From assembly GCF_019112525.1 (NCBI RefSeq), contig NZ_CP077800.1:2914001-2978000 (forward strand): a DNA stretch of 64,000 bases, in the 5' to 3' direction. The notes below the pieces were generated by a model. That model saw only the letters and a list, made by a program, of their open reading frames with translations, had not been told where the DNA came from and made no database searches. The DNA comes from Modestobacter sp. L9-4. GTDB taxonomy: Bacteria > Actinomycetota > Actinomycetes > Mycobacteriales > Geodermatophilaceae. A program made the translations under genes and the position numbers. Below, piece after piece: positions 1 through 63,181 of the stretch (its first letter is position 1; every line of letters begins with the position of its first letter).

Positions 1-1
1 C

Positions 2-979
2 GGCTTCTTCCTCACCATCATCGGGCTGGCCGACGCCGGCATCATCCGCCCGGGCAACCCGCTGATCAGCTTCGGCGTCAACGGGTCGCTGGCCGGCTGG
101 CCGATGCTCACCTTCGTCGTCGGCCTGCTGCTGACCAGCGTGCTGGTGGTGCGCAAGGTCCGCGGGGCGCTGCTGATCGGGATCATCGCCACCACGGTGT
201 TCGCGATCGTGGTCGAGGCGATCGCCGACATCGGCCCGCGCACCGGCGCCGACGGCACCGTGGCGGACGCCCACGGCTGGGCGCTGCAGGTGCCGACCTG
301 GCCGGGGCAGGTGTTCGACGTCCCGGACCTGTCGCTGATCGGCAAGTTCTCGCTGTTCGGCGGCTTCGACCGGATCGGGCTGCTCGCCGCTGTCCTGATC
401 GTCTTCTCGATCATGATCGCCGACTTCTTCGACACCGTCGGCACCGTGACCGCCGTCGGCGCCGAGGGCGACCTGCTGGACGCCGACCGCAACCTGCCGC
501 GCTCGCAGCCGGTGCTGCTGGTCGACTCCCTCGCCGCGGCCGCCGGTGGTGCGGCCAGCGTGTCGTCGAACACGACCTACATCGAGAGCGCCGCCGGCGT
601 CGGCGACGGTGCCCGCACGGGTCTGGCCAGCGTCGTCACCGGCGTGCTGTTCCTGGTCGCCACCTTCTTCACCCCGCTGGTGCAGGTCGTGCCCTCCGAG
701 GCCGCTGCACCGGTGCTGGTGATCGTCGGCGCGATGATGATCAGCCAGGTGCGCGACCTCGAGTGGGGCGACATGTCCCTGGTGATCCCGGCGTTCCTGA
801 CCATCGCGCTGATGCCCTTCACCTACTCGATCACCAACGGCATCGGCGCCGGCGTCGTCAGCTACGTGCTCCTGCGGGTCGCCACCGGGCGCCGCCGCGA
901 CGTGCACCCGCTGATGTGGGTCGTCGCCGTCGTCTTCGTCGTCTACTTCGCGCTGGACCCGATCCAGCAGCTCGTCTGA
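2..979 (+). CDS. NCS2-family purine permease, AzgA type (5' truncated)
   Basis: Inner-membrane uptake carrier for purine bases (adenine, guanine or hypoxanthine) of the AzgA/PbuG branch of NCS2. The frame is open from the window edge, so the N-terminal half is missing. Visible are six or seven hydrophobic segments, the family motif DFFDTVGTVTAVGAE (about nt 421-465) and the SSNTTYIESAAGVGDGARTG stretch typical of the branch. The C-terminus ends in a hydrophobic helix, as in complete family members. A strong hairpin follows the stop codon directly. The exact purine carried cannot be told from sequence. Confidence 0.86.
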   Translation, partial: GFFLTIIGLADAGIIRPGNPLISFGVNGSLAGWPMLTFVVGLLLTSVLVVRKVRGALLIGIIATTVFAIVVEAIADIGPRTGADGTVADAHGWALQVPTWPGQVFDVPDLSLIGKFSLFGGFDRIGLLAAVLIVFSIMIADFFDTVGTVTAVGAEGDLLDADRNLPRSQPVLLVDSLAAAAGGAASVSSNTTYIESAAGVGDGARTGLASVVTGVLFLVATFFTPLVQVVPSEAAAPVLVIVGAMMISQVRDLEWGDMSLVIPAFLTIALMPFTYSITNGIGAGVVSYVLLRVATGRRRDVHPLMWVVAVVFVVYFALDPIQQLV

Positions 980-984
980 CGAAG

Positions 985-1039
985 GGCCCCCTCTCCCCCC
1001 ACCCCTCGCAGGCTCGGGGCGGGACCCTGAGAGGGGGCC
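985..1039 (+). terminator. Stop-proximal hairpin, repeat family I, copy A
   Basis: Perfect 11-bp arms at 985-995 and 1029-1039 enclose a loop containing CTCGCAGGCTCG (1005-1016). The element starts right after the permease stop (TGACGAAGG). Related copies lie at 4101-4146, 13004-13065, 13681-13736 and 17494-17544. No U-tract follows, as is common for actinobacterial hairpin terminators. Confidence 0.75.
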
Positions 1040-1064
1040 GGGGGTGGCCGTGCGGGACGGATCG

Positions 1065-1093
1065 TTAGACAGGCTTCGGACTTCGGCTAGGGT
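1065..1093 (+). promoter_or_regulatory. Leaderless promoter of the MarR gene
   Basis: A -35 element TTAGAC (1065-1070) and a -10 element TAGGGT (1088-1093) are separated by 17 bp. The GTG start at 1101 lies 7 bases after the -10, so transcription would begin at or next to the start codon. No Shine-Dalgarno sequence is needed in this arrangement. Confidence 0.6.
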
Positions 1094-1100
1094 GGGCGCT

Positions 1101-1535
1101 GTGGCACGGACGACGTTGGACACCGCGGCGCTCGCCCACGACCTGCGCCTGGCCGTCATGCGCCTGTCGCGCCGGCTGCGCAACCAGCGGGTCGACACCA
1201 CCGTCACCCTCACGCACCTCGCCGCGCTGTCGACTCTCAAGCGCCACGGGCCGATGAGCCCGGGGGAGCTGGCCGCGCACGAGCGGGTGCAGCCGCCGTC
1301 GATGACCCGGGTCGTCGTCGCCCTGGAGTCCCAGGGCCTGGTCACCCGGACGCCGCACCCCACCGACGGGCGGCAGGTCGTCATCGGCCTGACCCCGGCC
1401 GCGGAGGACCTGCTCACCGAGGAGGTCCGGGCGCGCGAGGCGTGGCTGTCCGGCCAGCTGCAGCAGCTGACCGCCGAGCAGCGCGAGGTGTTGCGCCAGG
1501 CCGCGGTCATCATGGACGAGCTCGCCAGTGGGTGA
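1101..1535 (+). CDS. MarR-family transcriptional regulator
   Basis: Winged-helix repressor-type regulator of 144 residues, the usual MarR length. Helices leading to the wing are visible: LTHLAALSTLKRHGPMSPGE, then the recognition region VQPPSMTRVVVALESQGLV and the wing TRTPHPTDGRQVVIGLT. The C-terminal dimerisation helix is rich in Glu and Gln. GTG 1101 is chosen over a GTG at 1044 because it lies 7 bases behind a good -10 element and keeps the family length. The stop overlaps the MFS start (GTGA at 1532-1535), so regulator and transporter are translationally coupled. It probably controls that exporter. The ligand is unknown. Confidence 0.88.
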   Translation: MARTTLDTAALAHDLRLAVMRLSRRLRNQRVDTTVTLTHLAALSTLKRHGPMSPGELAAHERVQPPSMTRVVVALESQGLVTRTPHPTDGRQVVIGLTPAAEDLLTEEVRAREAWLSGQLQQLTAEQREVLRQAAVIMDELASG

Positions 1536-2926
1536 CGTCGACGGCTGCTGACCCCGCCCCGCGACCCGGCTCGTTCCGGGCGCTGCGCGCGCACAACTTC
1601 CGGCTCTACGTGTCGGCGAACCTGGTCAGCCAGACCGGGACCTGGATGCAGCGCATCGGCCAGGACTGGCTGGTGCTGCAGCTCTCCGGCGACAGCGGCG
1701 TCGCTCTGGGCGTCACCACCGCCCTCCAGTTCGGCCCGAGCCTGTTCTTCAGCTTCTACGGCGGCGTCCTCGCCGACCGCTACGACAAGCGCCGGCTGCT
1801 GATGGTGACGCAGGCCGTGATGGGCGTGCTCGCCCTCGCCCTGGGGCTGCTGGTGGCCACCGACTCCGTCGCGCTGTGGCACGTCTACCTGCTGGCGCTG
1901 CTGGTCGGGGTGGTGTCCTCGCTGGACACCCCCGTGCGCCAGTCGTTCGTCTCGGAGATGGTCGGCCCGGACCTGCTGGCCAACGCGGTGAGCCTCAACT
2001 CCACGGTGTTCAACGCCGCCCGGCTCGTGGGGCCGGCGGTGGCCGGTGGCCTGATCGCGCTCGCCGGCGGCAACACCGCCCCGGCCTTCCTGGTCAACGC
2101 CGTCAGCTTCGCCACCACGATCGCCGCGCTGGTGCTGATGCGGGCCGACGAGCTGGACCCCAGTCCACCGGCGCCCCGGTCCCGCGGCCAGCTGCGGCAG
2201 ACGCTGGCCTACACCCGCCAGCACCCGGACCTGATGCTGGCGATGGGCCTGGCGTTCACGCTGGGCACCTTCGGGTTCAACTCCCAGATCACCATCGCGC
2301 TGATGGCCCGCGAGGTGTTCGGGCTGGGTGCCGGTGCCTTCGGGCTGCTGTCGACGGCCTACGCCGTCGGGTCGCTGTCGGGTGCACTGCTGTCGACCCG
2401 CCGCAGCACCCGCCCGCTGCAGCGCTTCCTGATCGTCTCCGCGGTGGCCTTCGGCGTGCTGCTGGTCGTCAGCGGGCTGATGCGCAACTACTACGCCTTC
2501 GCCGCGCTGCTCATCCCGACCGGCGCCGCGGCCCTGGTGTTCAGCGTGGCCTGCAACAGCTTCGTGCAGCTCGGCGTCGAGCCGCAGTGGCGCGGCCGGG
2601 TGCTCGCGCTGTACTTCATGGCCTTCCTCGGCGGCACGCCGGTGGGGGCGCCGCTGATCGGCTGGGTGTCGGAGCGGCTGGGTGCGCCCTGGGGCCTGAT
2701 CAGCGGTGGGCTCGTGTGCGTCGTCGTCTCCGTCCTCGCCGGTGTGGTGCTGGCCCGGGGCCGCCGGGTGCGGCTGGAGATGCACGTCCTGCCGCCGCGC
2801 ATGCAGCTGCACGTGGCCGCGACCACGCCGCCGAACCAGGTCGCGGTGCTCGCCGAGGAGGCCGACGGCGGCGTCCCGGCGGAGGCCGTCCTGGGCGATC
2901 AGGTGGCGCGCGACCCGGCTCGCTGA
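1532..2926 (+). CDS. MFS transporter (multidrug/siderophore exporter type)
   Basis: Major facilitator carrier of about 464 residues with 12 predicted membrane helices, from FRLYVSANLVSQTGTWMQRI onward. This N-terminus is typical of the EntS/DHA3-like exporters. The loop motif ADRYDKRRLL between helices 2 and 3 is the MFS signature A region. The start is the GTG at 1532, overlapping the MarR stop, because the protein begins naturally 20 residues before the conserved NFRLY region. Its coupling to a MarR regulator suggests export of a toxic compound sensed by that regulator. The substrate cannot be named. Confidence 0.87.
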   Translation: MTSTAADPAPRPGSFRALRAHNFRLYVSANLVSQTGTWMQRIGQDWLVLQLSGDSGVALGVTTALQFGPSLFFSFYGGVLADRYDKRRLLMVTQAVMGVLALALGLLVATDSVALWHVYLLALLVGVVSSLDTPVRQSFVSEMVGPDLLANAVSLNSTVFNAARLVGPAVAGGLIALAGGNTAPAFLVNAVSFATTIAALVLMRADELDPSPPAPRSRGQLRQTLAYTRQHPDLMLAMGLAFTLGTFGFNSQITIALMAREVFGLGAGAFGLLSTAYAVGSLSGALLSTRRSTRPLQRFLIVSAVAFGVLLVVSGLMRNYYAFAALLIPTGAAALVFSVACNSFVQLGVEPQWRGRVLALYFMAFLGGTPVGAPLIGWVSERLGAPWGLISGGLVCVVVSVLAGVVLARGRRVRLEMHVLPPRMQLHVAATTPPNQVAVLAEEADGGVPAEAVLGDQVARDPAR

Positions 2927-2982
2927 CGGTCGCACTGAGCGTCCGCGTTGTGACTCGGCGCTGACGGCGATACCGTCGCGGG

Positions 2983-3516
2983 GTGCCCCCTCCAGGGTCG
3001 GTCTCCGAAGACACCGGGGCGTCGCTGCTGCAGATCGGCGGCCTCGCCGCGTTGGTCGCCATGGGCGCGCTCCTGCTCGCGCTGCTGGTGCGCCTCGTCG
3101 TCCGGATGAGCCGCGCCGCCGCCGCTGACGAGCCCGCGCCGCCGCCCCCGGCCCCCGCGCCGCCCCGGGTCGCCGGCCCGGCGACCCCGCGGCCGGCCGC
3201 CGCCGGGCACCACCCGGTGGGCCGCCGCAGCCCCGGCACCGGGGCGCAGCGGGCCGTGACCGGCCCCCGCCGGCCGCTGCAGATGGTCGCCGCCGACCTG
3301 CGCCGGCTCACCGGCGAGCTGTCGATGGTGCCCGGCGGGCTGTCGGCCGAGCGCCGTCGCGACCTGCTCGCCGCCTACGACGACGTCCTGATGGAGGCCG
3401 CCGAGCTGCTGCAGGTGCCGCACCGGCTGCGCACCGAGCCGCCGGCCACCCGGGAGCTGGAGCGGCTGCGGCTGCTCAGCCAGCTCGAGGCCGCGGGCCT
3501 GGTGGTGTCCGGCTGA
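2983..3516 (+). CDS. Uncharacterised single-pass membrane protein
   Basis: A 177-residue protein of unknown function. It has a short N-terminal tail, one membrane helix (about residues 16-40, GGLAALVAMGALLLALLVRL), a Pro/Ala-rich linker and a C-terminal alpha-helical domain (about 100-177) rich in Arg, Leu and Glu, likely cytoplasmic. A TACCGT -10 hexamer (2971-2976) lies exactly 6 bases before the GTG start, indicating a leaderless transcript. Its stop overlaps the proposed start of thpR by one CTGA. I recognise no family. Confidence 0.65.
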   Translation: MPPPGSVSEDTGASLLQIGGLAALVAMGALLLALLVRLVVRMSRAAAADEPAPPPPAPAPPRVAGPATPRPAAAGHHPVGRRSPGTGAQRAVTGPRRPLQMVAADLRRLTGELSMVPGGLSAERRRDLLAAYDDVLMEAAELLQVPHRLRTEPPATRELERLRLLSQLEAAGLVVSG

Positions 3517-4149: not shown

Positions 4150-6825
4150 CTAGGCGTCCTCGCGCAGCACGGACGCCGGGTCGGCCCGGTCGGCGGCCCG
4201 CTGGGCGTAGAGCGCGGCCAGGGCGGCGACGACCAGGACGACGACCACGCTGCCGGCCAGCGCCGACCACGGGACGTCGAGCAGCGGGGTGGGCGGGCGC
4301 ACGGTGTCGACGTCCAGCCGCCGGTAGACCAGCGCCACGGCACCGGCGGCGAGCACCCCGCCCAGCAGCGAGCCGAGGACAGCCACCCCGGCCAGCTCGA
4401 CCACCAGCGACCGCAGGTGGGCACCGCGGGTCAGGCCGAGCCGGCGGGCCATCACGTAGCCCGAGACCCGGGTGCGGGAGCGCGCCTCCAGGTACAGCAG
4501 CAGACCACCGACGGCGATGACCCCGACGAAGACGGCCAGCGCGGACAGGTAGCCGAAGGTCCAGGTGATGCCCAGGAAGTTGGCGCGCTGCTCCACCTGC
4601 GCGGGCTCGATCACGCGGGTGGTCGGCGCGCCGGCGTCCAGGACGGCCCGGACCGCGGGTGCGGTCGGGCCGTTGGTCCAGACCTCGGCGACGCGGGCCG
4701 CCCCGGCGCTGCGGGGCACCTCGGGCAGCCGGTCGGCGGCCACCAGCACCAGCGGGCTGTCGGCGCGCCGGCCGGGCAGCACCCGGGCCACGTCGACGAC
4801 CTGCGCCCCGAACGGCTCGTTGCCCACCTGGAGGTCGGGGTCGCCCGGCGACAGGCCGGTGGCGACCACCGGCACCCGGCCGTCGACCTCGGGTCCCTGC
4901 AGGGCGGCCATGAGGTCGGGCAGCGAGGAGTCGGCGAACGAGTCGTCCCAGAACGCGGTGTCCGCGAACGTGGTGGGGTCGACGGCGAGCACCTGCACGT
5001 CGGTGCGCGCGGGGGCGCCGCCGCGGCGGGCGGGGGCCACGGCGCTGCCGTCGTAGCGCACGACGAAGGTGCCGGCCGCGTCGACCGCCGGGGTCGGGGC
5101 GAACCGCGACACCGCGACCACGGCGCGCTCGGCCCCGATCTGCACGCCGACCTTGGCGTCCAGCGTGCGCTGCGAGCTGGCGGTCAGCGTCGCCGTGTAG
5201 CCCAGGACGGCGACCGGCAGGGTGATGGCCACCAGCAGCGTGCCGGTGGCCAGCCGGGCGGCGACGAGCCGGTTGACCGCGAGGAAGACGGCGGGGGAGC
5301 GGCGCCCGGCCCAGCGGCGCAGGCGCGGCAGCAGCGCGGTGCCCACCCGGCCCAGCAGGGCGGCGGCCCCGGCGATGGCCAGCAGCGGGAAGGCGACCAG
5401 CAGCCCGTTGACCTGGGCGACGTTGCCCTCGTTCGTGACGGCGTCCCGGCTGCGCAGCAGCACCCAGCACCAGCCGGCGGCGGCGAGCAGGGCGAGCTCC
5501 CACGGCACCTGGGCCGGCCAGCGGGGTGCTGCGCCCAGCGGGCGCTCGGCGGTGCTGCGGGCGCGGAGCCCGGCGACCACGGCGGCAGCGGCCAGCCCCA
5601 CGGCGAACGCGCCGACGCCGGCCCACACCGCGGCCGTGGTCGCCGAGGGGTCGAGGTCGTCGGCGGGGCCGAGCAGGGCGATGAGCAGCCGGGACACCGC
5701 CCAGCCCACGGCGGCACCCGCGAGCGCGGGCAGCCCGAGCTCCAGCGCGGCCTTGCCGGCCAGTGGTGCCGGGCCCACGCCGCGGGCGGCCAGCAGCCGC
5801 ACCTCGGTGGCCCGCCGGTCGGCCCAGAAGCTGCCGGCGGCTGCCACGAGCAGCAGGGCGAGCAGGCCACCGGCCACCGCGACCGGCACGACCGGACCCC
5901 GCAGACCGCGCTCGATCACGTCGGCCCGGTCGGCCGCCTCGGCCAGCCGGGAGCCCGGCAGGGTGCCGGTGATGCCGGGGATGTCCGCGGTCGCCTGGTC
6001 GGCGCGCGCCTGGTCCGCGAGCAGGGCGCGGGCGTCGGTCACCGACAGGCGCGCCGGGTCGGTGGGTGCCAGGCGCACCGCGGTCACGAAGGGCGCGCCG
6101 GCGGCCAGCCGGCCGAAGGTCTCCTCGTCGGTGGCCAGCAGCAGCTCCGGCGGCGGGGTGTTCGCGTTGATGTCGTTGGCGTAGAGCTGCCGGTAGTCAC
6201 ACCACGCGGCCGACGGCGTGGTGGCGTACAGCGCGACGTAGGTGCCGACCACGGTGACGGGCTGCGAGCTCACGGTGAGGGTGTCCCCGACCGTGAGGCC
6301 GTTGTCCTGCGCCCAGCCCTGCGGCACCCACAGGCCCTCGCCGTCGATCCGGTCGACCTGCTCGACGTCGTCCACCGCCCCGGGGCGGTAGAAGAGCGAG
6401 CTGCGGACGCCCGGGGTCCCACCCGCCGCGGTGCGCACCGGGACGGGCGAGGGGCCGTTGGTCCCCCCACCGAACGTCCCGGTGGCCATGACCGGGGTGC
6501 TGTCCCGGCCGGTCTGCGCCCACCCCTGGGCGAGCGTCGTGTCGATCGTCCCGGCGTCGAACTGCTGACCGGTGGGCCGGCCGTTCTGGTCGAACTGCCG
6601 GACGACGGCGCCGGTCTGCCCCCAGCCGGCCTCGGCGCAGTCCTGCGCGAGCTGCTGCTGGAGCGCACCGGAGCGGGCCGAGGACAGGAACAGCGGTGCC
6701 GAGGCCAGGGCGCAGGCCAGGATCGCCGAGGTCACCAGCACGGCGATGACGGCCGCGGGCTGGCGGAGGCCGAGCAGCGGGGCGCGGGTCCAGGGGGCCA
6801 GCCGCCACAGCGGTGGCCGGCTCAC
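4150..6825 (-). CDS. ABC transporter permease, FtsX/MacB-like
   Basis: Large permease of 891 residues with the duplicated FtsX architecture: a helix near residue 25-48, a large extracytoplasmic domain (about 50-300), a cluster of helices (about 305-540), a second external domain (about 550-740) and three final helices. It begins with GTG 6825, overlapping the stop of the upstream ATPase gene (GTGA). The gene order two ATPases then one permease suggests both ATPases serve this protein, possibly as a heterodimer. Such systems move lipids, lipoproteins or peptides, or transmit force to periplasmic partners rather than transport; the cargo is unknown. Confidence 0.85.
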   Translation of the reverse strand: MSRPPLWRLAPWTRAPLLGLRQPAAVIAVLVTSAILACALASAPLFLSSARSGALQQQLAQDCAEAGWGQTGAVVRQFDQNGRPTGQQFDAGTIDTTLAQGWAQTGRDSTPVMATGTFGGGTNGPSPVPVRTAAGGTPGVRSSLFYRPGAVDDVEQVDRIDGEGLWVPQGWAQDNGLTVGDTLTVSSQPVTVVGTYVALYATTPSAAWCDYRQLYANDINANTPPPELLLATDEETFGRLAAGAPFVTAVRLAPTDPARLSVTDARALLADQARADQATADIPGITGTLPGSRLAEAADRADVIERGLRGPVVPVAVAGGLLALLLVAAAGSFWADRRATEVRLLAARGVGPAPLAGKAALELGLPALAGAAVGWAVSRLLIALLGPADDLDPSATTAAVWAGVGAFAVGLAAAAVVAGLRARSTAERPLGAAPRWPAQVPWELALLAAAGWCWVLLRSRDAVTNEGNVAQVNGLLVAFPLLAIAGAAALLGRVGTALLPRLRRWAGRRSPAVFLAVNRLVAARLATGTLLVAITLPVAVLGYTATLTASSQRTLDAKVGVQIGAERAVVAVSRFAPTPAVDAAGTFVVRYDGSAVAPARRGGAPARTDVQVLAVDPTTFADTAFWDDSFADSSLPDLMAALQGPEVDGRVPVVATGLSPGDPDLQVGNEPFGAQVVDVARVLPGRRADSPLVLVAADRLPEVPRSAGAARVAEVWTNGPTAPAVRAVLDAGAPTTRVIEPAQVEQRANFLGITWTFGYLSALAVFVGVIAVGGLLLYLEARSRTRVSGYVMARRLGLTRGAHLRSLVVELAGVAVLGSLLGGVLAAGAVALVYRRLDVDTVRPPTPLLDVPWSALAGSVVVVLVVAALAALYAQRAADRADPASVLREDA

Positions 6826-7493
6826 GCCGGTGCCCCGTCGGTCAGGTGCCCGTCGCGCATGGACAGCACCCGGTCGGCCCGGGCCCAGGCCAGCTCGTCG
6901 TGGGTGGCGATCAGCACGGCCGCCCCGCCACGGGCGGCGTCGGTGACGGCGTCCAGCAGCCGGTCAGCGTTGCCGCGGTCCTGGTGGGCGGTGGGCTCGT
7001 CGGCCAGCAGCACCGCCGGGCGCAGCAGCAGGGCCCGGGCGACGGCGACCCGCTGCTGCTCACCCAGGGAGGCCTGGTGCGGGTAGCGGTCGGCGAGGTG
7101 GTCGACGCGGAAGTCGGTCAGCAGCGTGCGGGCGCGCTCCTCCTCGGCGGCGGCGGTGCCGCCCAGCCGGGCGGGCAGCAGCACGTTGTCGGCGAGGCTG
7201 AGGTCGGCGACCAGGCCGAGCGCCTGCGGGACCAGCGCCAGCTCCGGCCAGCCCAGCGAGATCGGTGGGCGGTCGGCCAGTGCGCCGAGGTAGTCCAGCC
7301 GGCCGGCGTCGGCGGTCTCCCAGCCGCACAGCAGCGCCAGCAGCGTGCTCTTGCCCGACCCGGACGGGCCGACGAGGGCCACGAACTCCCCGGCGTCCAC
7401 CCGCAGGTCGACCCCGGCCAGCGCGGTGACGGTCTCCGCGCCGCGGGAGAACCGCTTCACCAGCCCGGTGGCGGCGAACCCGCCGGCGCTCAC
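6822..7493 (-). CDS. ABC transporter ATP-binding protein (MacB/LolD type), first copy
   Basis: ATPase of 223 residues. Walker A is GPSGSGKST, Walker B is VLLADEPT and the H-loop is IATHDE. The signature region reads ASLGEQQRVAVARAL, with SLGEQ in place of the classic LSGGQ, so it departs slightly from the consensus while its partner is canonical. GTG 7493 overlaps the stop of the upstream ATPase gene. It is the second gene of the operon 8206 to 4150 and most likely pairs with its neighbour to power the FtsX-type permease. Confidence 0.88.
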   Translation of the reverse strand: MSAGGFAATGLVKRFSRGAETVTALAGVDLRVDAGEFVALVGPSGSGKSTLLALLCGWETADAGRLDYLGALADRPPISLGWPELALVPQALGLVADLSLADNVLLPARLGGTAAAEEERARTLLTDFRVDHLADRYPHQASLGEQQRVAVARALLLRPAVLLADEPTAHQDRGNADRLLDAVTDAARGGAAVLIATHDELAWARADRVLSMRDGHLTDGAPA

Positions 7494-8206
7494 GCGCTCA
7501 CCAGCCGGCCGTGGTCGAGCCGGACGAACCCGTCGGCGATCGCCATGACCCGCGGGTCGTGGGAGGAGATGACGAACGCGACGCCGGCGGCGGCGAGGTC
7601 CTCCATCGCGGCGAGCACCCGCTCGGCGGCCGCGGTGTCCAGCTCGGCGGTGGGCTCGTCGGCGACCACCAGGGCCGGGTCGCCGACCACGCCGCAGGCG
7701 ACGGCGAGGCGCTGCTGCTCGCCGCCGGACAGCTGCGCGGGGGAGTGGTCGGCGCGCTCGGCCAGCCCGAGGCGGGCCAGCAGCGCCAGGGCGTCGTCCT
7801 CGGTGACCGGCGCCCCGCGCAGCGAGGCGGCCAGCCGGACCTGGGCCACGGCGTCCAGGTAGGGCAGCAGGTTCTCACCGGGGCGCTGGAAGAGGTAGGC
7901 CACCTGCCGCTGGCGCAGCCGCCGGCGGGCCCGGGCGCGGAGCCGGTCGACCCGCTGCCCGGCGACGTGGACCTCGCCGGTGTCGGGGGAGTCGATGCAG
8001 GCCAGCAGCCGCAGCAGCGAGGACTTGCCCGAGCCCGACGGTCCGACCACCACGGTGACCTGCGCCCGCGGGATGGCCAGCGTCACGTCGTCCAGGGCGG
8101 TGACCGACTCCGTCGCCGTCCGGTAGGTCTTGCCCACGGACCGGCAGACCGCGGCCGGGGCAGGGGGTGCGCCGGGGGTGGACCGGAGGGCCTCGTCGTC
8201 GCTCAT
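7490..8206 (-). CDS. ABC transporter ATP-binding protein (MacB/LolD type), second copy
   Basis: ATPase of about 238 residues with Walker A GPSGSGKSS, a canonical signature LSGGEQQRLAVACG, Walker B LVVADEPTAELD and H-loop SSHDPR. ATG 8206 (protein start MSDDEALRST) is preferred to an in-frame GTG at 8239, because the extra residues are not conserved in such ATPases and a -10-like TACGCT lies at 8216-8221. It is the first gene of the operon and overlaps the next by GTGA. Confidence 0.87.
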   Translation of the reverse strand: MSDDEALRSTPGAPPAPAAVCRSVGKTYRTATESVTALDDVTLAIPRAQVTVVVGPSGSGKSSLLRLLACIDSPDTGEVHVAGQRVDRLRARARRRLRQRQVAYLFQRPGENLLPYLDAVAQVRLAASLRGAPVTEDDALALLARLGLAERADHSPAQLSGGEQQRLAVACGVVGDPALVVADEPTAELDTAAAERVLAAMEDLAAAGVAFVISSHDPRVMAIADGFVRLDHGRLVSA

Positions 8207-61087: not shown

Positions 61088-61930
61088 GTGACCGCACCCG
61101 CCACGCTCGCCGGCGTCGCCGAGCTCACCGACCTCCTCGCCGACGGCGGGGCACTGGTGCTCTCCGGCGCGGGGCTCTCGACCGACTCCGGCATCCCCGA
61201 CTACCGCGGCGCCACCGGTTCGCTGCGCCGGCACACGCCGATGACCTACCAGACCTTCACCCGCGACCCGCGCGGCCGGCACCGCTACTGGGCGCGCAGC
61301 TTCGTGGGCTGGCGGCAGATCGGCGACGCCCGGCCCAACGCCGGCCACCGCGCCGTCGCCGCGCTGCAGCAGGCCGGGTGCGTCGGCGAGGTGATCACCC
61401 AGAACGTCGACGGGCTGCACCAGGCCGGCGGCGCCCGCGACGTCCTCGAGCTGCACGGCGGGCTCGACCGCACCGTCTGCCTGGCCTGCGGTGACGTGGC
61501 CTCCCGCGCCGCACTCGACGTCCGGCTGCGGGCGGTCAACCCCGGCTTCCGGCCGGAGGCCACCGACGAGGTCAACCCCGACGGCGACGTCGAGCTGCCC
61601 GAGGAGGCGCTCGACGGGTTCGTGATGGTCGACTGCCTGGCCTGCGGCAGCGGCCCGCTCAAGCCCGACGTCGTCTTCTTCGGCGAGACGGTGCCGCGCG
61701 ACCGGGTCGACCGCTGCTTCGCCCTCGTCGAGGAGGCCCGGTCGCTGGTCGTGCTCGGCTCGTCGTTGACCGTGATGAGCGGCTACCGGTTCGTCATCGC
61801 CGCGGCCAAGCGCGGCATCCCGGTCGCGATCGTCAACTCGGGCCCGACCCGCGGCGACGCCAAGGCGACGCTGCGGGTCGACGCCCCGCTCGGCGAGGTG
61901 CTGCCCGAGCTGGCGCGCCGGCTGTCGTGA
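61088..61930 (+). CDS. NAD-dependent protein deacylase, Sir2 family
   Basis: Sirtuin of 280 residues that removes acyl groups from lysines with NAD. Motifs are LVLSGAGLSTDSGIPDYRG, TQNVDGLHQAGG, catalytic His in ELHGG, two zinc CLACG pairs and GSSLTVMSGYRF. It is of the class II (SIRT4-like) type by length and the long zinc insert. GTG 61088 has GGAGGG just upstream. Its stop overlaps the next small gene by GTGA, suggesting a joint function. Confidence 0.92.
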   Translation: MTAPATLAGVAELTDLLADGGALVLSGAGLSTDSGIPDYRGATGSLRRHTPMTYQTFTRDPRGRHRYWARSFVGWRQIGDARPNAGHRAVAALQQAGCVGEVITQNVDGLHQAGGARDVLELHGGLDRTVCLACGDVASRAALDVRLRAVNPGFRPEATDEVNPDGDVELPEEALDGFVMVDCLACGSGPLKPDVVFFGETVPRDRVDRCFALVEEARSLVVLGSSLTVMSGYRFVIAAAKRGIPVAIVNSGPTRGDAKATLRVDAPLGEVLPELARRLS

Positions 61931-62235
61931 CCCGCGAGGTCGAGCACACCGAGGACGGCCGCTGGATCGTCGTCGACGGACGGCGCTGGCGGACGGCGGA
62001 CCCCTCGCTGCCCGAGGACGTGCGGGCGCAGCTGCTGCACCACCTGGGCGTGGGCCGCTCCGGCGTCCGCGCGGCCAGGGGCGACGAGGCCGCGGTGGCC
62101 GCTGCCCGGGCGCGGACGCAACTGGCCAAGACCGGACTGGGGGAGCGCGGCACCGCCTGGTGGGACCAGTCCCCGGACGAGCGGCAGGCCCGCTGGGAGT
62201 CGGCGCTGGAGCAGCTGGACGCCCTCGGCGGTTGA
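61927..62235 (+). CDS. Conserved actinobacterial small protein
   Basis: A 102-residue soluble protein with the recurrent actinobacterial start TREVEHTEDGRWIVVDGRRW, a charged Arg/Ala-rich helix and a WWDQSPDERQARWESALEQL end. It is sometimes labelled a Tol-type transporter in annotations, but it has no membrane segment and that name is not supported. It overlaps the sirtuin by GTGA, so it may regulate it or be a substrate. Function unknown. Confidence 0.75.
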   Translation: MTREVEHTEDGRWIVVDGRRWRTADPSLPEDVRAQLLHHLGVGRSGVRAARGDEAAVAAARARTQLAKTGLGERGTAWWDQSPDERQARWESALEQLDALGG

Positions 62236-62266: not shown

Positions 62267-63181
62267 ATGCAGACCTTCCTCCCGGTGCAGGACTTCACCG
62301 AGTCCGCCCGGCTCCTCGACAACCCCCGCCTCGGCAAGCAGCGCGTGGAGTGCCTCCAGGTGCTGCGCGCCCTGGAGCTGCCCGACTACGGCTGGGCCAA
62401 CCACCCCGTCGTCATCATGTGGCGCGGGTACACCGCCGGCCTGGTCGTCTACTCGCTGGCCATGGTGCGGGTCTGGAAGGAGCGCGGCTTCGCCGACTCC
62501 ACCGAGGCGCTGATCTCCGAGTTCGCCCCCGACGCCGCCGCGATGACCCAGGCCGAGGCCGCGGAGGCCGGGCTGCTGCCGAGCTGGGTGGGCGACGCCG
62601 AGCTGCACCTGTCGCACCGGTCGAACCTGGTCGCCAAGGACCCGGAGTTCTACCGGTCGAGGTTCCCCGAGGACCCCGACGACCTGCCCTACAAGTGGCC
62701 CGGCGCGGACGACGTCCCGCCCGCCCCCGCGCCGGAGGGCGTGCCGGTGTGGGTCGTGCGTCCGCGGGCGCACAACGAGCTGGGCGCCGCGCTGTTCGGC
62801 GGGCTCGTCGGGCTGGGCACCCAGTCCGGCATCGACGTCGACGCCACCGGGCAGTCGCCGGCCGAGCTGCGCGCACTGTCCAAGGAGCTGTCCGGCAAGC
62901 GCCCGGCCAAGGACTTGCGCCAGCTCACCGCCTTCCTCGACGAGGTCGCCCCCGGTGACCTGGTCGGCCTGCCGATCGAGGTGGGCGCCGGGCTGCTGCT
63001 GGGCCGGGTGGTGGGCGACTACTCCTTCCACGGCCGCGAGCTGCTGCCGCACCGCCGTCCGGCCCGGTTCGAGGCGGTCGTGCCCCGGTCGGCCGCACGC
63101 CCACCGGCGACGCTGCAGGACCCGCGGGCGCTCTTCCGGATCACCCTCGACCCGGACGCCGTCCCGCCCGGCCTGCGCTGA
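62267..63181 (+). CDS. MSMEG_6728-like pyrimidine-dimer-glycosylase domain fused to a PUA-like/Mrr-N-like domain
   Basis: Two-domain protein of 304 residues. Domain 1 (about 1-150) starts MQTFLPVQDFTESARLLDNP and RLGKQRVECLQVL, the MSMEG_6728/T4 endonuclease V-related family predicted to act on UV dimers. Domain 2 (about 159-290) reads VWVVRPRAHNELGAALFGGL, PGDLVGLPIEVG, GRVVGDYSFHG and HRRPARFEAV, a pattern like the modified-base or nucleic-acid reading domain at the N-terminus of some Mrr and McrB restriction proteins. AGGAGGT lies before the ATG. The fusion is unusual to me; a role in DNA repair or defence is inferred. Confidence 0.75.
   Translation: MQTFLPVQDFTESARLLDNPRLGKQRVECLQVLRALELPDYGWANHPVVIMWRGYTAGLVVYSLAMVRVWKERGFADSTEALISEFAPDAAAMTQAEAAEAGLLPSWVGDAELHLSHRSNLVAKDPEFYRSRFPEDPDDLPYKWPGADDVPPAPAPEGVPVWVVRPRAHNELGAALFGGLVGLGTQSGIDVDATGQSPAELRALSKELSGKRPAKDLRQLTAFLDEVAPGDLVGLPIEVGAGLLLGRVVGDYSFHGRELLPHRRPARFEAVVPRSAARPPATLQDPRALFRITLDPDAVPPGLR

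Follow-up and report, generated by a model that had tools for sequence, protein, structure and literature searches.

In a window of 64,000 nucleotides of Modestobacter sp. L9-4 (contig NZ_CP077800.1, positions 2,914,001 to 2,978,000; the window is this whole stretch, and all positions below refer to it), we characterized a gene at 62267-63181 (+) in which a domain of the pyrimidine-dimer glycosylase family Pyr_excise is fused to a C-terminal domain with a predicted EVE/YTH fold. Our best, though still tentative, reading of the product is a host enzyme for photolesion repair whose reader domain docks on DNA. The gene encodes a real protein, as a preliminary description of this DNA had assumed: the open reading frame (ORF) is intact at exactly these coordinates, an AGGAGG ribosome-binding site lies just 5' of its ATG start, and its GC content by codon position (0.77/0.49/0.98) is the coding signature of the host genome, which has 4.22 Mb in a single contig. 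Modestobacter strains are the nearest named relatives, and their proteins are 98-96% identical to the fusion protein, which is organized as follows (aa, amino acids).

62267-63181 (+): whole fused gene, 304 aa
62267-62704 (+): N-terminal domain, aa 1-146, MSMEG_6728 family / Pyr_excise, helical, E28 aligning with Glu23 of T4 endonuclease V
62705-62740 (+): linker, aa 147-158, Pro/Ala-rich
62741-63148 (+): C-terminal domain, aa 159-294, predicted EVE/YTH-like (PUA superfamily), homologous to the N-terminal module of PDC-S02

The N-terminal half had been called MSMEG_6728-like, and the profile searches agree: residues 1-145 match NF038085 (MSMEG_6728 family) with E 5.8e-64 and 214.6 bits against a curated cut-off of 100, and residues 1-79 match PF03013 (Pyr_excise) with E 7.3e-20 and 71.6 bits against a gathering cut-off of 23, covering positions 1-77 of the 81 in the profile. 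T4 DenV, taken from the T4 record, also matches nearly the whole of PF03013 (E 4e-14). Profile comparison linked MSMEG_6728-type proteins to bacterial Pyr_excise proteins (E 2.5e-9), and the latter to T4-type enzymes (E 2.2e-8); by these profiles, the link from MSMEG_6728-type to T4-type proteins is transitive, through intermediates. When profiles were compared directly with T4 DenV, whether as a single sequence or as a small family, the N-terminus stayed unaligned, and intermediates were needed. Membership of the N-domain in the Pyr_excise/MSMEG_6728 family is firm on this sequence evidence. The stand-alone MSMEG_6728 family (Streptomyces, Nocardioides, mycobacteria and many phages) shares the N-terminal 146 residues with the fusion, including the common signature M-Q-T-F, LD..RLGKQRVE, GW..HP, SHRS..K..Y and Y.WP, whereas the stand-alone form has about 135-210 aa and lacks the PUA-like domain.

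Previous work on T4 pyrimidine dimer glycosylase (PDG) indicated that Glu23 (numbered Glu22 in that paper) takes part in proton transfer (PMC3285167). E28 was placed on this residue in 3/3 MAFFT modes and also by profiles via the intermediates. When conservation was judged on relatives found by hidden Markov model (HMM) or tblastn, Glu was kept at this position in the full-length HMM-found relatives that were read, and the divergent phage relatives had Glu in 5/6 and Asp in 1/6; in these phage proteins D18 is kept, as is E28 apart from the single Asp, while K24 and R26 vary. The invariance of RLGKQRVE among relatives on viral contigs was discarded as evidence, because this string was itself the search pattern. 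The predicted model of the N-domain has a predicted local distance difference test (pLDDT) score of 95.5, and in Foldseek and VIA searches with the N-domain alone no solved structure scored above Z 3.3; PDB sequence searches with the whole protein, the N-domain profile and the C-domain profile gave nothing meaningful.

Other Pyr_excise proteins (L153 77-832 (+) and L156) end in a different extension, about 150 residues long and YbgA/DUF1722-like by eye, which suggests that the Pyr_excise domain is prone to fusion. In addition, Gordonia phages (L197, L198, L201, L202) encode proteins of the MSMEG_6728 type that carry their own C-terminal extension, some with insertions near the N-terminus, and in L198 and L201 the MSMEG_6728-type gene stands directly before the DNA polymerase III alpha gene.

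The C-terminal half, from about residue 159, had been compared with the N-terminal module of some restriction proteins, and this assignment stands: residues 161-275 align with positions 1-124 of PADLOC PDC-S02 (E 1.1e-6 with the whole protein, E 2.8e-7 with the C-half alone, up to 5.4e-10 with orthologues), and the named motifs are located at W162-R165, GDLV 230-233, GRVVGDY 246-252 and HRR 262-264. In other genomes the same module occurs with Mrr_cat (L057, L058, L061, L149) or beside a McrB-type AAA ATPase (L063, L064), and one Mrr-type protein from a Geodermatophilaceae genome (G308/L149) is 37% identical to the C-domain. The PDC-S02/Mrr-type nucleases thus carry at their N-terminus a reader module homologous to the C-domain, but the fusion differs from them in its reversed order, in having no Mrr_cat, in the change of the GIGW Trp to Thr, and in PA.LQDP in place of YSLG. 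Pfam gave no match to the C-domain up to E 10, EVE and YTH models included, and NCBIfam gave no significant match across the module in the Mrr-type carriers. Nor did Pfam find a nuclease family in the fusion protein, whereas true module-plus-nuclease proteins do match Mrr_cat. Two further carriers were observed: L062 1024-1956 (-), where the module is fused to a NucS_C-like nuclease and not to Mrr_cat, and the McrB-like protein of L063 (ORF 1-3345), where Pfam EVE is followed by the unnamed EVE-like module and then by the AAA domain, as tandem readers.

The full-length predicted model (pLDDT 91.7, predicted template modelling score 0.87) places the C-domain in the EVE/YTH (PUA-superfamily) fold, in line with the PUA/Mrr-N-like structure proposed for it earlier. 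In Foldseek, the top PDB matches were YTH domains that read N6-methyladenosine (prob 0.99-1.00, E ~7e-3), and in VIA all 50 of the 50 matches listed were EVE or YTH proteins. The best aligned chain was the EVE domain of VcaM4I (Z 8.4, root-mean-square deviation 3.2, 115 residues, VIA), with archaeal EVE-type proteins next; a Z of about 8 is modest by itself, yet the listed VIA matches all belong to one superfamily. VcaM4I is an EVE-HNH modification-dependent endonuclease which shares the predicted reader fold with the fusion but has an HNH nuclease where the fusion has the Pyr_excise domain, with no significant sequence similarity between them. The pocket of VcaM4I for flipped 5-methylcytosine (5mC) or 5-hydroxymethylcytosine (5hmC) is formed by P24, W82 and Y130 (PMC7897488). 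Most Mrr-type modules have a Trp after the second strand (GIGW), which is T185 in the fusion protein and Thr, Ala, Ser or His in other fusions, and what the fusions have in common in its stead is a basic K/R-rich stretch up to R218, a GD turn and, towards the end, PA.LQDP. Because of this replacement and these fusion-specific segments, the base pocket of the C-domain is likely altered. Q284 in the LQDP segment might act as the wedge that Q128 forms in VcaM4I, but this is no more than a guess.

A survey of domain architecture, as proposed in the preliminary description, found a match to the fusion protein in 50/59 Geodermatophilaceae genomes and in 47/53 of the good ones, nearly always at full length; genome samples here are draws and not censuses. 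Other actinobacteria mostly carry the stand-alone form, the copies read on viral contigs were all stand-alone (134-181 aa), and no sampled phage or plasmid record contained the fusion. In the N-domain tree all fused proteins fall in one clade (support 99/93), and codon comparison gave a median ratio of nonsynonymous to synonymous substitution (dN/dS) of 0.19 for the N-domain and 0.23 for the C-domain, so that both domains are under similar purifying selection. Therefore the fusion has a single deep origin in Actinomycetota, is old, and has been maintained as a unit. A recent chance fusion was rejected given the near-core presence in the family, the one clade, and the stand-alone form typical elsewhere. 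Two proteins inside the fused clade (L052, L188) have a C-terminal region of about 165 aa which is not recognisable as the PUA-like domain.

The near-core, vertical pattern and the absence from sampled phages and plasmids favour a housekeeping repair gene over a mobile defence gene. Moreover, the stand-alone MSMEG_6728 of M. smegmatis belongs to the SigF stress regulon (PMC4694148), and Geodermatophilus, of the Geodermatophilaceae, is tolerant to UV and ionizing radiation (PMC4119925); together with the vertical pattern and the Pyr_excise ancestry, these point to host DNA repair. In the photolesion-repair reading, for which we infer the enzymatic activity, the substrate, the nucleophile and the ligand of the C-domain, the N-domain would be a divergent branch of the pyrimidine-dimer glycosylase/apurinic-apyrimidinic (AP) lyase family that uses E28 as the acid to excise a photolesion or to nick the DNA there, and the likeliest lesion would be a cyclobutane pyrimidine dimer. 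The probable role of the PUA-type C-domain is to anchor the enzyme to DNA or to hold a flipped nucleotide, and such docking, with the distorted or flipped-out site held in place, may raise affinity or selectivity. The fusion joins a little-studied, phage-abundant branch of dimer glycosylases to a reader module whose other carriers in this analysis were all restriction-type proteins, and it does so in a bacterial family of desert and stone known for its radiation tolerance. If the enzyme is active, EVE/YTH-like readers would extend from restriction and RNA biology into lesion repair and MSMEG_6728-family proteins would gain a testable function; a PUA-like domain without a Pfam or NCBIfam model would also be defined.

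Several points weigh against photolesion repair. The direct profile comparison of MSMEG_6728-type with T4-type proteins is weak, and our literature search gave no paper measuring the activity of any MSMEG_6728-family protein. The host genome already encodes a photolyase, inside the window, so that the fusion enzyme would be a light-independent addition and not the sole route. The fusion also differs from T4 endonuclease V (DenV), with which it has the Pfam family and the position of the catalytic Glu in common, in its extra C-terminal domain and in three features of the N-domain. First, the Schiff-base nucleophile of T4 PDG is the amine of its N-terminal Thr (PMC3285167). This Thr has no counterpart in the fusion protein, which begins Met1-Gln2-Thr3, and position 2 is Gln (Asn in 2) across all 63 aligned members. 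Methionine aminopeptidase normally leaves Met before Gln in place; with Gln as the second residue of almost every member, Met1 probably stays on the protein. Thus, of the catalytic residues expected of the N-terminal half, the Glu is present and the Thr nucleophile is not. Second, the segment before E28 (RLGKQR) is longer than in T4. Third, in the proposed comparison with the endonuclease V fold, T4 endonuclease V (2END/1VAS) was not among the Foldseek and VIA matches of the N-domain model, which does not by itself exclude the fold. The same three features speak for a rival reading in which the N-domain has altered chemistry, as an AP lyase or some other enzyme acting on DNA, and would process abasic or oxidised sites; the T4-like pyrimidine dimer glycosylase of a Chlorella virus is reported to incise at an oxidised guanine (PMC4918129). 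Given the strong PF03013 membership and the retained catalytic Glu, we consider such altered chemistry rather unlikely.

We give a similarly low rating to a two-key base-excision enzyme, in which the EVE/YTH-like sensor would recognise or flip an altered nucleotide, either a lesion or a modification, and would thereby license or position Pyr_excise-type catalysis. To our knowledge, this would be the first coupling of EVE/YTH-like readers to base excision rather than to a nuclease or ATPase.

Because the relatives of the module sit on restriction-type proteins (with Mrr_cat, a NucS-like nuclease or McrB-type AAA ATPases), a defence role is the main rival to photolesion repair. Here the EVE/YTH-like domain would read modified phage bases and the Pyr_excise-type domain would excise or nick, as a modification-dependent glycosylase like Brig1 but unrelated to it. 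The EVE/YTH domain of VcaM4I does read 5mC/5hmC (PMC7897488), and anti-phage DNA glycosylases are known (PMC11078745); Brig1 would be a functional analogue if the fusion is a glycosylase on unusual bases, although the uracil-DNA-glycosylase superfamily domain by which Brig1 is recognised is absent from the fusion protein, in which Pfam gives Pyr_excise only. However, the gene is near-core and vertical in Geodermatophilaceae with one old origin, unlike patchy defence genes, the phage and plasmid records sampled lack it, and the Trp that likely lines the base pocket of most modules is lost in the fusions. We therefore regard defence as improbable, and the suggestion of a lesion- or modification-specific nuclease in the preliminary description goes beyond the evidence, given the missing nuclease domain, the lost Trp and the repair-like distribution. 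Least probable by far is an RNA-directed function, in which the PUA-like domain would read modified RNA and the N-domain would act on RNA or be merely structural: modified RNA is a known ligand of YTH domains and of many EVE domains (background in PMC7897488) and RNA-reading YTH domains dominate the PDB matches of the C-domain, but its closest sequence relatives are on DNA restriction-type nucleases and the N-domain belongs to the family of a DNA repair enzyme.

The surroundings of the fusion gene had been described as a sirtuin and a small gene, which is what the window contains, together with the photolyase gene.

61927-62235 (+): ORF of 102 aa directly upstream of the fusion gene, no known family
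61088-61930 (+): sirtuin (SIR2, NAD-dependent protein deacetylase), NF003738, 321 bits
44478-45866 (-): DNA photolyase, PF00875 and PF03441

The GTG start of the 102-aa ORF overlaps the sirtuin stop, and its product is about 70-90% identical in most Geodermatophilaceae. Sirtuin and small ORF are kept as neighbours of the fusion gene only within this family; in Kineococcus and Pseudokineococcus the fusion is present without these conserved surroundings, and in Kineococcus the small ORF does not lie beside it. A functional partnership with either gene was not adopted, since the pairing is absent in Kineococcus and other fusion-bearing lineages. When neighbours in other lineages were inspected for a link to repair or defence, they were mixed (rhodanese, aspartate decarboxylase, ZnuA and others). 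In Kineococcus rubinsiae (L032), DUF559/MTES_1575-like nuclease genes closely flank the fusion gene at 4171-5016 (+) and 6961-7779 (-). In the Modestobacter window, the photolyase gene and the fusion gene lie about 16 kb apart, which would place two UV-damage genes within one window.
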